From: Candidatus Poribacteria bacterium
Lineage (GTDB): Bacteria; Poribacteria; WGA-4E; B28-G17
NCBI GenBank assembly: GCA_021162805.1
Contig: JAGGXZ010000187.1
Coordinates: 1-56,367 of the forward strand
Reading direction: 5' to 3'
DNA length: 56,367 bases
Position numbers and translations under genes: made by a program. Every line of letters begins with the position of its first letter. Position 1 is the stretch's first letter. Below the pieces are notes generated by a model. It was given only the letters and a program-made list of their open reading frames with translations. It was not told the origin of the DNA and did no database searches. Below are positions 5,823 to 41,754 of the stretch, piece by piece.

Positions 5823-7232
5823 ATGAGGGTTCTTCTGCTGAATCCGCCCTTTCCGAGCGGGGTTTATGACGCCTTGAACATGTCATTGCCCCCGATGGGG
5901 CTCATGTATGTCGCCTCGGTTCTCAGGGAGGGGGGCCACGACGTCAAGCTCGCGGACCTCACGGTTAAAGGTCAGAAAGCCGACCTATCGGAGCCGGATA
6001 TCATCGGCATATCATGCTGCACCCCTCAATATCCATTCGGGCTGGAGCTGGCCAGGAGGGCGAAAGAAGAGGGGAAGGTCGTCGTCATGGGAGGACCACA
6101 TGTTACTTTCACCGCTGAGGAGACGCTTAAGACCGGACTGGTGGACTTCGTGGTGAGGGGCGAGGGCGAGATGACGATGCTGGAGCTTGTAGACGCCCTC
6201 CAGGGGGAGAGGTTCGATCCGTCAAAGATCCCCGGCATCTCATGGCTTGAGGGGGAAACAGGGCGTGTCGTCCATAACCCCGACAGACCTCCCGTGATGG
6301 ATCTCGACTCCCTTCCCTATCCAGCCAGAGATCTGGCTGGGGTCAGGGAGAACTACAAAACCTGCCTCAAAAGGACGAAACTCTCAACTCCCATCATAAC
6401 GAGCAGGGGCTGTCCTTTCAGATGCTCCTTCTGCGTGATACCCAGGATGAACGGGAGGATCTGGAGACCCAGGTCGCCCGAGGCGGTGGTGGACGAGATA
6501 GAACATGTCGTGGAGGAATATGGGTTTGAGGGGATAATCTTCACGGACGACAACTTCACCGTCAGACCGGAGAGGGTCAAACGGACATGCGATCTGATCA
6601 TCGAGAGGAAAATCGATATAGCCTGGTGGTGTATGTCCAGGGCGGACACCATCCTCAGGAATGAGGATATGGTCGAGAGGATGGCCGAGGCAGGCTGCTG
6701 CACGATCTTCATCGGCCTTGAAAGCCCGAACCCCGAAACGCTCAAGTTTTACCACAAGAAAACCTCACCCGACGTGAACGAAAAGGCGATCGATCTGCTG
6801 AGAAAACATGGCATTCAAACCCTCGGCTCCTTCATACTCGGCGCCCTAAACGAGGGGAAGGAGGAGTGTGAGAGGACGATCGAATACGCGTTGAGGCTCG
6901 ATCCTGAGCAATGTCAGTTCTCGATCCTCACCCCATACCCCGGAACGGAGATCTTCGATATGGTCAGGGACAGGATAAAGGTGAGGGATTGGACGAAATA
7001 TGACTGCGTTCATGCGGTCTTCGATTCAGATCGGCTCACCGCCAGGCAGAAGGAGAAGCTGCTCAGAAAGGCCTACAAGAGGTTCTATTTGAGGCCCCGG
7101 AGAATCTTTAACTTCTCTAGGATCGGGCCGAGCGTGAAGACCGTCTGGCTGATCCTCGGGTATTTCCTCTCTCAGCTCCGTAAAGGCGGGAAATCGCTAT
7201 GGAAAGGCTGTTCCTCTATCTGCGGCAGATAA
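5823..7232 (+). CDS. B12-binding-domain radical SAM protein
   Basis: 469 residues. The N-terminal Rossmann-like cobalamin-binding domain (about 1-150) has the NPPF, PPMGLMYVASVLR and GGPHVTF elements; the radical SAM core follows with Cys197, Cys201 and Cys204 (RGCPFRCSFC) for the 4Fe-4S cluster, and the C-terminal third is family-specific. B12 radical SAM enzymes often methylate unreactive carbons in lipids, antibiotics or chlorophylls. First gene of the operon; its end overlaps the next gene by 34 bases. A role in modifying a lipid is inferred from the neighbours. Confidence 0.93.
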   Translation: MRVLLLNPPFPSGVYDALNMSLPPMGLMYVASVLREGGHDVKLADLTVKGQKADLSEPDIIGISCCTPQYPFGLELARRAKEEGKVVVMGGPHVTFTAEETLKTGLVDFVVRGEGEMTMLELVDALQGERFDPSKIPGISWLEGETGRVVHNPDRPPVMDLDSLPYPARDLAGVRENYKTCLKRTKLSTPIITSRGCPFRCSFCVIPRMNGRIWRPRSPEAVVDEIEHVVEEYGFEGIIFTDDNFTVRPERVKRTCDLIIERKIDIAWWCMSRADTILRNEDMVERMAEAGCCTIFIGLESPNPETLKFYHKKTSPDVNEKAIDLLRKHGIQTLGSFILGALNEGKEECERTIEYALRLDPEQCQFSILTPYPGTEIFDMVRDRIKVRDWTKYDCVHAVFDSDRLTARQKEKLLRKAYKRFYLRPRRIFNFSRIGPSVKTVWLILGYFLSQLRKGGKSLWKGCSSICGR

Positions 7233-38286: not shown

Positions 38287-38586
38287 CTATCCTGAGCTCC
38301 CTTTCTTATATTTCACCTCGCCGTGGACCTCGATTATATCGACTATGGCAGTGATTGCAGCATCTACCGGCTTCTCCCTGGTGAGAGGAGTATATCTGGA
38401 AGAGCTTCCGGTGACGACCAGTACTACTTCTCCCACGCCAGCTCCCACCGAATCCATAGCCACCAGATACCTATCCTTGGGATTACATTCGACATCTATC
38501 TCCTGGACGACCATAAGTTTCCCGCCCACGAGTTTTTCGTCCTTGCGTGTCGCCACAACCGTTCCGACTACCTTGCATAGAACCAT
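38287..38586 (-). CDS. EutN/CcmL family bacterial microcompartment vertex protein
   Basis: 99 residues, the normal size of the pentameric vertex proteins. The family pattern is plain: CKVVGTVVATRKDEKLVG at the N-terminus, KLMVVQEID, DSVGAGVGEVVLVVTGSSSR in the middle, and PVDAAITAIVDIIE. These proteins cap the corners of icosahedral protein shells. No hexameric shell protein or encapsulated enzyme gene is in the window, so this is a stand-alone locus. An AGGAGA site supports the start and a good promoter lies upstream. Confidence 0.93.
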   Translation of the reverse strand: MVLCKVVGTVVATRKDEKLVGGKLMVVQEIDVECNPKDRYLVAMDSVGAGVGEVVLVVTGSSSRYTPLTREKPVDAAITAIVDIIEVHGEVKYKKGSSG

Positions 38587-38684: not shown

Positions 38685-38713
38685 TTGTCAGGTGAAGGGG
38701 GATAATGTAAAAT
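38685..38713 (+). promoter_or_regulatory. Predicted sigma-70 promoter of the fluoride riboswitch transcript
   Basis: TTGTCA and TAAAAT separated by 17 bases. The expected start of transcription near 38720 falls just before the first base of the riboswitch aptamer. Confidence 0.7.
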
Positions 38714-38726
38714 TTTCCATGTGATA

Positions 38727-38783
38727 CGGCGATGGGGTTCGCCGTTAACCGCCGGTCGTTCAGATCGGCTGATGACCCCTACC
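38727..38783 (+). promoter_or_regulatory. Fluoride riboswitch (crcB motif)
   Basis: The aptamer matches the known consensus: stem CGGCGA/TCGCCG (38727-38732 with 38739-38744) enclosing GATGGGG, then TTAACCGCC, a second stem GCCG/CGGC, and the hallmark GGCTGATGACCCCTAC. The loop GGGGT (38734-38738) can pair with ACCCC (38775-38779) to form the required pseudoknot. The same ACCCC bases form the 5' arm of the terminator that follows, so fluoride binding should prevent termination and switch the downstream gene on. Confidence 0.92.
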
Positions 38784-38813
38784 AAACGGCGGGAGCGGTA
38801 GGGGAATTTTTTT
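38776..38813 (+). terminator. Intrinsic terminator of the fluoride riboswitch
   Basis: CCCCTACC (38776-38783) and GGTAGGGG (38797-38804) form an 8-base stem followed by AA and seven T. Its 5' arm overlaps the riboswitch pseudoknot. A further stem AACGGCGGG (38785-38793) with CCCGCCGTT (38815-38823) is mutually exclusive with it and could be an extra antiterminator. Confidence 0.88.
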
Positions 38814-38845
38814 GCCCGCCGTTCCCTTGAAGGTGGGGTGAAGGG

Positions 38846-39274
38846 ATGAAGTTCAAACATAAAAATCATCTTCTTTCCGGGTATCTTACCCTCGCCAAGC
38901 AGATTCGTGAGGTGAGAAGCATCATCTGCGAAGGTGAACCGATAAGCGGAACGGGCATGCCGATGGAACCGTTGCCTCAGGAGAAACAGGATAAGATCCT
39001 CCGTGTCCTTAAGCTCATATCGGATCGGTTTGAGAAGCTTGTTGCGAAGTTCGCTCCGGAGGAGCTGGAGGAATCGGGAAGGCGTCAAAACGCCTCGGTT
39101 ACCAAGATGTGGGCTTCCATCGTTTTAAGGAACATCAGGGAGACATTGGAATCGATTCATCCGAGGAACTTCGAAAGGAAATTCGGAGATCTATCCCCGA
39201 AGGAAAAGGAACTGCTTAAGGCTGAGTCAGAGCGGATGATCGAGGAGTTGGATCGACTGCTGAGGGAGATCTAG
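38846..39274 (+). CDS. Unknown 142-residue helical protein under fluoride riboswitch control
   Basis: I do not recognise this protein. It is charged, has no membrane segment or signal peptide, and is predicted to be almost all helical: an N-terminal helix (LTLAKQIREVRSIICEG), a glycine/proline-rich turn with GTGMPMEPLPQ, then long helices up to the LDRLLREI end. It has one cysteine and no known catalytic motif. A GGTGGGGTGAAGGG stretch precedes the ATG. The fluoride riboswitch and terminator lie directly before it, so it should be made when fluoride is present. It is clearly not a Fluc/CrcB channel, a CLC antiporter, enolase or pyrophosphatase, the usual genes under this control. Confidence 0.8.
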   Translation: MKFKHKNHLLSGYLTLAKQIREVRSIICEGEPISGTGMPMEPLPQEKQDKILRVLKLISDRFEKLVAKFAPEELEESGRRQNASVTKMWASIVLRNIRETLESIHPRNFERKFGDLSPKEKELLKAESERMIEELDRLLREI

Positions 39275-39296: not shown

Positions 39297-39325
39297 TTGA
39301 CTAAGTAAGATGAATCGTCTATAAT
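39297..39325 (+). promoter_or_regulatory. Predicted sigma-70 promoter of the DegT gene
   Basis: TTGACT and a perfect TATAAT with a 17-base spacer, about 35 bases before the start codon. It makes a transcription unit separate from the riboswitch gene possible. Confidence 0.75.
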
Positions 39326-39361: not shown

Positions 39362-40600
39362 ATGGAAAAACTGGCCATAGATGGTGGTAAACCTATAAGG
39401 GATAAACCGTTTCCACCCGTTAGGAAGGTTGGAGATGAAGAGCTGGAAGAGCTGAGAAAGGTGATAGAATCCGGCAACCTCTTTCGAGGAGCAAGGGTCA
39501 GGGAGTTCGAGGAGAAATTCGCCCGGCTTTACGGCGTCAAAAGGGCCGTATCCAGCACGTCCGGCACGGCTGCGATACACGTGGCGATGGCGATGTTGAA
39601 CCTCAACCCCGGCGATGAGGTTATAACCGGGCCGATAACGGATATAGGGACGGTTATACCCATCCTCGCCCAAAACGCCATACCGGTCTTCGCCGATATC
39701 CAGCCGGATACCTTCAATCTGGATCCCGATGACGTCGAACGCAAGATCACCCCGAAGACGAGAGCGATCGTAACGGTTCATCTCTTCGGAAACCCATCCG
39801 ATATGGATGGGCTTCTCCGGGTTGCGCGTAGACATGGGATCGCTCTCGTGGAAGACAGCGCCCAGGCTCATCTGGCCTCATATAAGGGCAAGCTGACCGG
39901 CACCATAGGGGATATAGGCTGTTTCAGCTTCCAACAGAGCAAGCATATGATAACCGGCGACGGGGGAATGACGATAACCGATAACGACGAATACGGTGAC
40001 CGCGGGGCGATCTTCGTCGATAAGGGATGGGAGAGATGGGTCTCAGGGCCCAGGCATTACGCCATGTTCGGGATGAATTACAGGATGACGGAGCTACAGG
40101 CCGCCGTCGGAATCGCGCAACTGAGGAAGGTCAAGCAGGTGACTGAGACCAGGAACAGGCTCGGAGACATGCTCAGCGAGATGATATCGGATGTCGGGGG
40201 TGTCAAGCCACAGAGGGTTTTGGAAGGATGCCGATGTGTATATTGGTATTATGGGATGGTCGTTGAGGAAGACGCCCCCTTCACCGCCGGTCAGTTCGCG
40301 AAAGCCCTCTCCGCCGAGGGCATACCGGCCGGGGCGCATTATATCGGCAAACCCATCTTTCTGTGTCACGAGGCGGTGAGGAATAAGAAGATCTACGGCG
40401 ATTCAGACTGCCCTTTCAACTGCAGGTATACCTCAGCTAAGGTCGAATACACCGAGGGATTATGCCCCGTCGCCGAGTCGGTCCTCGACAGGCTTATCAC
40501 CATATCCGTAAACGAGTTCATGAACGAGGAGGATATAGCCGATATAGCAAGGGCTATCAGAAAGGTGAGCGAGGGGCTATCAACAAAAGGCAGGGCGTAG
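39362..40600 (+). CDS. DegT/DnrJ/EryC1/StrS family aminotransferase
   Basis: 412 residues. SSTSGTAAIH (near 67) binds the PLP phosphate, VEDSAQAH carries the Asp that contacts the PLP nitrogen (about 165), and Lys194 in FSFQQSKHMITGDGG is the Schiff-base lysine. The family aminates keto-sugars linked to nucleotides or acts in related small-molecule pathways; the acceptor is not evident. A GGGGGG-type ribosome site and a good promoter are present. The next two genes follow closely and may be cotranscribed. Confidence 0.93.
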   Translation: MEKLAIDGGKPIRDKPFPPVRKVGDEELEELRKVIESGNLFRGARVREFEEKFARLYGVKRAVSSTSGTAAIHVAMAMLNLNPGDEVITGPITDIGTVIPILAQNAIPVFADIQPDTFNLDPDDVERKITPKTRAIVTVHLFGNPSDMDGLLRVARRHGIALVEDSAQAHLASYKGKLTGTIGDIGCFSFQQSKHMITGDGGMTITDNDEYGDRGAIFVDKGWERWVSGPRHYAMFGMNYRMTELQAAVGIAQLRKVKQVTETRNRLGDMLSEMISDVGGVKPQRVLEGCRCVYWYYGMVVEEDAPFTAGQFAKALSAEGIPAGAHYIGKPIFLCHEAVRNKKIYGDSDCPFNCRYTSAKVEYTEGLCPVAESVLDRLITISVNEFMNEEDIADIARAIRKVSEGLSTKGRA

Positions 40601-40610
40601 GAGGTGCGAT

Positions 40611-41177
40611 TTGGGCAAGGTCAAAATGTCACCGAGACGAATAGTTTATCCGACCCCTGCCGCCCTCATCACGTGCGTTGACGAGGAGGGCAGGCCGAAC
40701 ATAATCACCCTGGCCGAGGTGGCGCATCCGTGTATCGCCAACCCGACGATGATGATGCTCGCCATAGCGCCTGAGAGATACTCAAACAGCCTGATAAGAA
40801 AGACGAAGGAATTCGTCGTGAACTTCCCGACGGCCGATCTGGCGGAGAAGGTGGATGGATGCGGGTGCGTTTCAGGCAGAGATGTGGATAAATTCGATAG
40901 GTTCGGCCTGACTCCTCTGCCCGCCTCCGTAGTCAAACCGCCCCTGATAAAGGAGTGTCCCGTTAACGTCGAATGTGTGCTGAGATCCGTCCAGCCGATA
41001 GGATATCACGACTTCTTCATGGGTGAGGTGGTCGCCATACATGTCGATGAGGAGGTGCTCGACGAGAGAGGGGGAATCATTCCCGGGAAGCTTAACCCGC
41101 TGGTCTTCGTTCTAGGAGAGTACTGGAACGTCGGTAGGAGGCTCGGACATCATGGGTTCAGCCGAAGCAAAAGATAA
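40611..41177 (+). CDS. Flavin reductase-like domain protein
   Basis: 188 residues from a TTG supported by AGGAGG six bases upstream; an ATG at 40626 is an alternative. The FMN-binding split-barrel pattern of the flavin reductase family is seen: YPTPAALITCVDEEGRPNIITLAEV, a central VVNFPTADLAEKVDGCG, and YHDFFMGEVVAIHVDE near the end. Such proteins bind FMN and reduce flavins or serve as the reductase of two-component oxygenases. Ten bases separate it from the aminotransferase. Confidence 0.88.
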   Translation: MGKVKMSPRRIVYPTPAALITCVDEEGRPNIITLAEVAHPCIANPTMMMLAIAPERYSNSLIRKTKEFVVNFPTADLAEKVDGCGCVSGRDVDKFDRFGLTPLPASVVKPPLIKECPVNVECVLRSVQPIGYHDFFMGEVVAIHVDEEVLDERGGIIPGKLNPLVFVLGEYWNVGRRLGHHGFSRSKR

Positions 41178-41754
41178 ACTGCGCAGGCGAATACTGAGGA
41201 AATGCAGGGCGCTTAGCCCTGATGAGGTGATCGGGAGGAGCTCCAAGATACGATACAGGTTCATCGAGCTAACGGAGGAGCAGGGATTCAACGTGGTGAT
41301 GATCTACATCAGCGTGAGGAACGAGGTGGATACCTATGAGCTGGGAAAAGAGCTCCTGAGGATGGGTAAAATGGTCTGCGCCCCGGTGGTCGATAGGACT
41401 CAGAGGAGAATCCTGCCCTACACGGTGAGCAGAATCCCCGATGACCTGGTGGATGGGGAATACAATATACCCGAGCCGTCGAGGGAGAAGGGACAACCGG
41501 TTGATCCCAACTCGATAGATGTCGTCGTGGTCCCTGGCGTGGGATTTGACCTGAGAGGATATAGGATCGGATACGGGGGAGGATATTACGATAGATTCCT
41601 ACCGCTGTGTTCGAATGCGCTTTTTGTGGGGCTGGCATATGAGTTCCAGATCGTCGATAAGGTACCGAACGAGGATTGGGATATACGAATGGATATGATC
41701 ATAACGGAGGAACGCGTGATAAGGACGTCTACGGCATCAGAGGGGCGAGGTTAA
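41152..41754 (+). CDS. 5-formyltetrahydrofolate cyclo-ligase
   Basis: 200 residues. The family signature VPGVGFDLRGYRIGYGGGYYDRFL is complete, and an N-terminal basic helix (KDKLRRRILRKCRALS) and the ATP-site region are as expected. The enzyme converts 5-formyl-THF into methenyl-THF using ATP and so feeds the reaction of FolD, whose gene is also in the window. It overlaps the flavin reductase gene by 26 bases and its 3' end overlaps the convergent argC by 26 bases. Confidence 0.94.
   Translation: MGSAEAKDKLRRRILRKCRALSPDEVIGRSSKIRYRFIELTEEQGFNVVMIYISVRNEVDTYELGKELLRMGKMVCAPVVDRTQRRILPYTVSRIPDDLVDGEYNIPEPSREKGQPVDPNSIDVVVVPGVGFDLRGYRIGYGGGYYDRFLPLCSNALFVGLAYEFQIVDKVPNEDWDIRMDMIITEERVIRTSTASEGRG

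Follow-up and report, generated by a model that had tools for sequence, protein, structure and literature searches.

The window analysed here is a stretch of 56,367 nucleotides from Candidatus Poribacteria bacterium (contig JAGGXZ010000187.1). It carries a fluoride riboswitch ahead of a gene for a 142-residue protein, which we call ORF142. The features of the locus and its immediate surroundings are as follows.

38287 to 38586, minus strand: gene for an EutN/CcmL-type microcompartment shell vertex protein, divergent from the riboswitch and with its own promoter-like site (38655-38627)
38685 to 38713, plus strand: sigma-70-type promoter TTGTCA-17-TAAAAT, assigned by consensus match only
38719 to 38788, plus strand: fluoride riboswitch aptamer (RF01734) with its pseudoknot
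38776 to 38813, plus strand: intrinsic terminator, CCCCUACC (38776-38783) and GGUAGGGG (38797-38804) followed by U7 (38807-38813), predicted by folding
38830 to 38839, plus strand: ribosome-binding site region AAGGUGGGGU, for which pairing with the released strand 38775-38783 is a folding prediction only
38846 to 39274, plus strand: ORF142, a soluble helical protein of 142 aa, probably belonging as a divergent member to an undescribed family of fluoride operons (codon score, profile matches and AlphaFold2)
39297 to 39325, plus strand: promoter TTGACT-17-TATAAT of a DegT-type aminotransferase gene (11 of 12 consensus bases)
39362 to 40600, plus strand: the DegT-type aminotransferase gene, next after ORF142

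A covariance-model search of the 56 kb window, a check proposed in the initial annotation of this DNA, matches the complete RF01734 model (positions 1-64) to 38719-38788 with 59.6 bits and an E-value of 4.6e-14 over the window, well above the gathering score of 34. The pseudoknot is intact, with GGGGU (38734-38738) pairing with ACCCC (38775-38779), so that the full crcB-type aptamer with pseudoknot partners read earlier from the letters is borne out. Compared to the Rfam consensus GGaGU/ACUCC, one A-U pair has become G-C. The 4.3 Mb genome has no other RF01734 match, and matches above the cut-off occur in only 3 of the 98 genomes searched, the present one included. A riboswitch pattern search of viral contigs found none.

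The promoter is placed for transcription to start at or near the first aptamer base; three promoter-like sites were found in the region, against 0.9 expected in shuffled sequences. Downstream, the terminator hairpin folds with -16 kcal/mol, and its 5' arm is at the same time the 3' strand of the pseudoknot. Blocking the pseudoknot strands in the fold removes the terminator at a loss of 8.4 kcal/mol (from -40.7 to -32.3). In addition, the full leader is predicted to fold with 38775-38783 paired to 38832-38839 over the ribosome-binding site, which is predicted to be partly free once the strands are blocked.

Judged by its sequence, the leader is almost certainly a transcriptional fluoride ON switch, with its response to fluoride being a prediction. 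Without fluoride, strand 38776-38783 would fold into the terminator. With fluoride present, the pseudoknot of the aptamer would retain this strand, letting RNA polymerase read on into ORF142. The promoter just ahead of the aptamer, the terminator sharing pseudoknot bases and the textbook ON switch of the initial annotation are all supported by this arrangement of aptamer, pseudoknot and competing terminator. Going beyond that account, the released aptamer strand may also cover the ribosome-binding site, and such masking would be a second, translational layer of control.

By codon usage ORF142 is coding: it scores 0.234, whereas wrong frames within the window's genes reach 0.123 at most. Its product is soluble (GRAVY -0.60, no hydrophobic segment) and is modelled by AlphaFold2 as a helical bundle (pLDDT 71-73, pTM 0.65-0.69), in agreement with the earlier description of a helical 142-residue protein lacking a membrane segment. 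When considered as a membrane protein of the Fluc/CrcB (PF02537) or CLC-F (PF00654) type, it proved to be soluble and without a Pfam match. Homologue searches with ORF142 alone returned nothing usable from Pfam, NCBIfam, PHROGs, PADLOC, the PDB and plasmids, nor from viral contigs, GTDB peptide patterns and 98 relatives.

The structural models suggest one candidate identity. In Foldseek, both models have Dps proteins as their top matches, with probabilities reaching 0.97 and a TM of about 0.5, as would suit a ferritin-like/Dps-type four-helix bundle that protects against fluoride-induced metal or oxidative stress. However, the E-values of these matches are 0.14 or worse at 8-16% identity, there is a single E-x-x-H (E102-x-x-H105) where a ferritin-like di-metal site needs two, Pfam gives no ferritin match, and a ferritin-like-looking family of the phylum matches ORF142 no better than shuffles. 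We therefore regard a Dps-type function as extremely improbable. The family just mentioned (L014 and L059-L088) is an uncharacterised helical protein of about 180 aa with a weak COQ7 match, present in 77 of the 85 genomes of the window's phylum and found neither in this genome nor in the second genome that belongs to the same taxonomic family. Its member in relative G013 (L014), a weak hit, was rejected as an ORF142 homologue, as the family's profile ranks ORF142 below shuffles.

ORF142 is probably what the switch chiefly controls, since a near-consensus promoter of its own serves the DegT gene; some read-through is possible. The switch could conversely serve mainly the genes further downstream by read-through (DegT-type aminotransferase, flavin reductase-like protein and 5-formyltetrahydrofolate cyclo-ligase), leaving ORF142 as a minor passenger. 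These genes are co-directional (39362-41754), and a terminator was looked for after ORF142 and none found. The promoter at 39297-39325 speaks against such an arrangement, as do relatives that have the DegT gene without ORF142 and the fact that the fluoride riboswitches seen elsewhere are followed by none of these downstream genes; we consider it very unlikely. In the same-family genome G001, no ORF142 counterpart lies ahead of the DegT gene.

Because ORF142 alone finds no relatives, we examined the genes downstream of fluoride riboswitches elsewhere, specifically at 16 GTDB loci found by pattern and at matches in one further phylum (40 genomes). In genome G111, the first gene after the riboswitch (L050) encodes a soluble helical protein that has short motifs in common with ORF142; this lead was chosen as the best scorer among several dozen downstream ORFs. 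Searching genome-wide with the L050 protein gave one relative each in three genomes of the same phylum, G134 (46% identity), G101 (32%) and G102 (34%), and each of the four genes has an RF01734 match upstream of it, on the contig and strand that carry the gene. A profile of these four members, with ORF142 left out, was then compared with 1093 ORFs: ORF142 scores 18.2 bits (E 1e-4), against 7.1 for the next ORF and 11.6 for the highest-scoring of 5000 shuffles. Removing the lead member leaves ORF142 at 15.1 bits (E 9e-4; next ORF 6.3, best of 5000 shuffles 11.2). Two-member profiles give it weak scores, and the one of G101 and G102 alone does not set it apart from shuffles. In a six-frame search of the 98 genomes with the four-member profile, ORF142 ranks first with 17.5 bits (E 0.008 per genome), followed by a match of 14.3. 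A minus-strand ORF at L042, with 11.9 bits, was judged to be a chance match.

A fifth member came from a search of 16 riboswitch-bearing genomes. It lies in Acidobacteria bacterium 37-71-11, the genome of locus L039 (34.1 bits, E 4e-8), where it forms the N-terminal part of a dynamin-like GTPase (L111, G148), and adding it to the profile raises ORF142 to 20.1 bits. All five distant relatives, each in a different genome other than the present one, thus have an RF01734 riboswitch upstream on their own strand, which answers in the affirmative the earlier question of whether homologues occur near fluoride riboswitches. The members are all soluble and of similar length, and the family has no counterpart in Pfam, NCBIfam or the PDB. 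In the numbering of ORF142, residues N7-H8, L101 and G114 are common to all six proteins; G114 stands in an [FY]-G pair close to the final helix.

The link to ORF142 is remote, with 19-25% identity to the family members, a pairwise BLAST E-value of 0.017 and an hhalign value of 52-61%. These low values, and the fact that no direct homologue turned up in any library or among the 98 relatives, would suit an unrelated orphan that sits behind a fluoride switch in this lineage only and resembles the family through shared helical character. Yet across 98 genomes the profile picks out as its top match precisely the ORF next to the riboswitch, shuffled and reversed versions of ORF142 score far below the protein itself, and the signal persists without the lead member, so an orphan seems unlikely. 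Homology and genomic context together indicate that ORF142 is quite probably a divergent, stand-alone member of an undescribed helical family of fluoride-response operons.

The order of genes at the loci of the other members, from the riboswitch onwards, is as follows.

L106 (genome G134): riboswitch, Na+/H+ antiporter (PF00999), helical gene, Dynamin_N GTPase
L107 (G101) and L108 (G102): riboswitch, GTPase, antiporter-like gene, universal-stress-type gene, helical gene
L109 (G111): riboswitch, helical gene, TPR protein, DUF6062
L111 (G148): riboswitch, further genes, helical-GTPase fusion

The antiporter-like and universal-stress-type names at L107 and L108 come from reading the sequences. 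The GTPase is the next gene in L106, shares a gene run with the helical gene in L107 and L108 and is one protein with the helical domain in L111, where the fusion gene has a fluoride riboswitch about 1.8 kb upstream on the same strand. The surrounding stretch (L111:1-9000) holds three fluoride riboswitches in 9 kb (259-321 on the minus strand; 1785-1846 and 6373-6434 on the plus strand) and is a dense fluoride gene island. Dynamin-like GTPases behind fluoride riboswitches were located in several phyla:

L032, 274 to 1953, minus strand
L038, 27 to 1817, minus strand
L039, 1 to 1421, minus strand
L106, 40 to 1761, minus strand
L107, 3442 to 5328, minus strand
L111, 3316 to 5778, plus strand
L112, 3610 to 5397, plus strand
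L113, 3143 to 5002, minus strand

The GTPases tied to the helical family match PF00350 at E 4e-21 to 5e-29, and five of the GTPases listed are confirmed as PF00350. At L032, L038, L039, L112 and L113 the same GTPase type follows the riboswitch without a recognisable helical gene, accompanied by DUF6062 and a CrcB-like gene in L112 and by an enolase-like and a DUF6062-like gene in L113. DUF6062-type proteins with paired cysteine motifs themselves recur behind fluoride riboswitches (L003/L112, L040:152-1015 on the minus strand, L043, L050/L109 and L113), beside CrcB-like, enolase-like or GTPase genes; PF19538 is confirmed for L003 and L050.

The GTPase is absent from the stretch read at the G111 locus. 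ORF142 has neither a dynamin-like GTPase nor DUF6062 as a neighbour, and is surrounded instead by the DegT aminotransferase, flavin reductase-like and EutN/CcmL genes. Queries with the fluoride-operon GTPases and DUF6062 gave no match in a 1.05 Mb sample (24%) of this genome. A GTPase or DUF6062 neighbour, as seen in other members, may not be obligatory for the family.

Two proteins are commonly taken to be partners when their genes are fused or adjacent. We tentatively propose that ORF142 is a helical partner of a dynamin-like GTPase under fluoride stress, probably working as an adaptor or regulator. Together, the two could plausibly maintain or remodel the membrane that HF crosses. Bacterial dynamin-like proteins act at membranes, often as hetero-oligomers (PMC6162298). 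The main route of fluoride stress is the entry of HF through the membrane, with acidification (PMC11139923), and the antiporters in the same gene runs fit this route. The roles suggested earlier for ORF142 (binding fluoride, protecting a metal enzyme or regulating) found no support, and genome context points to a GTPase partner instead. For the explanation as a whole, that is, a fluoride ON switch, a family member and a GTPase partner, we see the case as evenly balanced.

No CrcB was found in this genome, which is 95% complete. Its only CLC protein (L013:1303-2613, contig C142) has GEGIP in the selectivity-filter position and lacks a GREGP-type gating glutamate. Chloride CLCs have GSGIP in that position, and by these motifs the protein is neither a standard chloride CLC nor a clear CLC-F. 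More speculatively still than the partnership itself, bacteria may carry a fluoride-triggered membrane system, made only on fluoride entry, that consists of a dynamin-like GTPase and a dedicated helical partner of the ORF142 family, often with DUF6062. ORF142 would then be the system in its minimal form, standing alone, and no Fluc exporter was found in its genome.

Current explanations of fluoride resistance mostly invoke export, antiporters and additional copies of sensitive enzymes. The described fluoride riboswitch targets include exporters, antiporters, pyrophosphatase, HAD proteins, enolase and formate hydrogen lyase (PMC11139923), and mutS was also described as a target in 2010 (PMC2864571). 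A MutS-domain protein after a fluoride riboswitch in genome G084 (L006:1-1422, minus strand) agrees with the latter association. ORF142 is none of the described types, so the initial annotation was right to place the controlled gene outside them; its list of known types was too short, omitting antiporters, HAD proteins, formate hydrogen lyase and mutS. Our literature search found no paper joining 'fluoride riboswitch' with 'dynamin' and none mentioning DUF6062, although an earlier mention is possible in subscription papers and supplements, which lay outside it. What is new here is the undescribed fluoride-response protein family, whereas the riboswitch controlling ORF142 is of a known kind. 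A helical family met only downstream of fluoride riboswitches, and tied to a GTPase by gene order and fusion, suggests a further arm of the fluoride response, possibly at the membrane. The family points to an unstudied part of bacterial fluoride defence, and the pairs of helical protein and GTPase are concrete pairs to test.

Ultimately, the locus can be set beside four known or recurrent systems. As a member of RF01734 the riboswitch is ordinary, with the complete aptamer, the pseudoknot and a terminator overlapping the 3' strand; unlike in typical members, the 3' strand is also predicted to pair with the ribosome-binding site, and the controlled gene is an undescribed one. DUF6062 (PF19538) is likewise an uncharacterised soluble protein that recurs behind fluoride riboswitches, and it shares an operon with the helical family in L109, but ORF142 has no sequence match to it and lacks the paired cysteine motifs. 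Bacterial dynamin-like GTPases (PF00350, Dynamin_N) are neighbours or fusion partners of the helical family in fluoride operons, whereas ORF142 has no GTPase domain and none adjoins it. The fourth system is the helical family itself (L050/L109, L106, L107, L108 and the N-terminal domain of L111). ORF142 differs from it in standing alone, in its low identity and in lacking both arginines of the NHRR motif of helix 1, of which it keeps N7 and H8. Like these proteins, it lies behind a fluoride riboswitch, falls in the range of about 140-155 aa, is soluble and helical, and bears the family's marks of NH in helix 1 and [FY]-G near the last helix.
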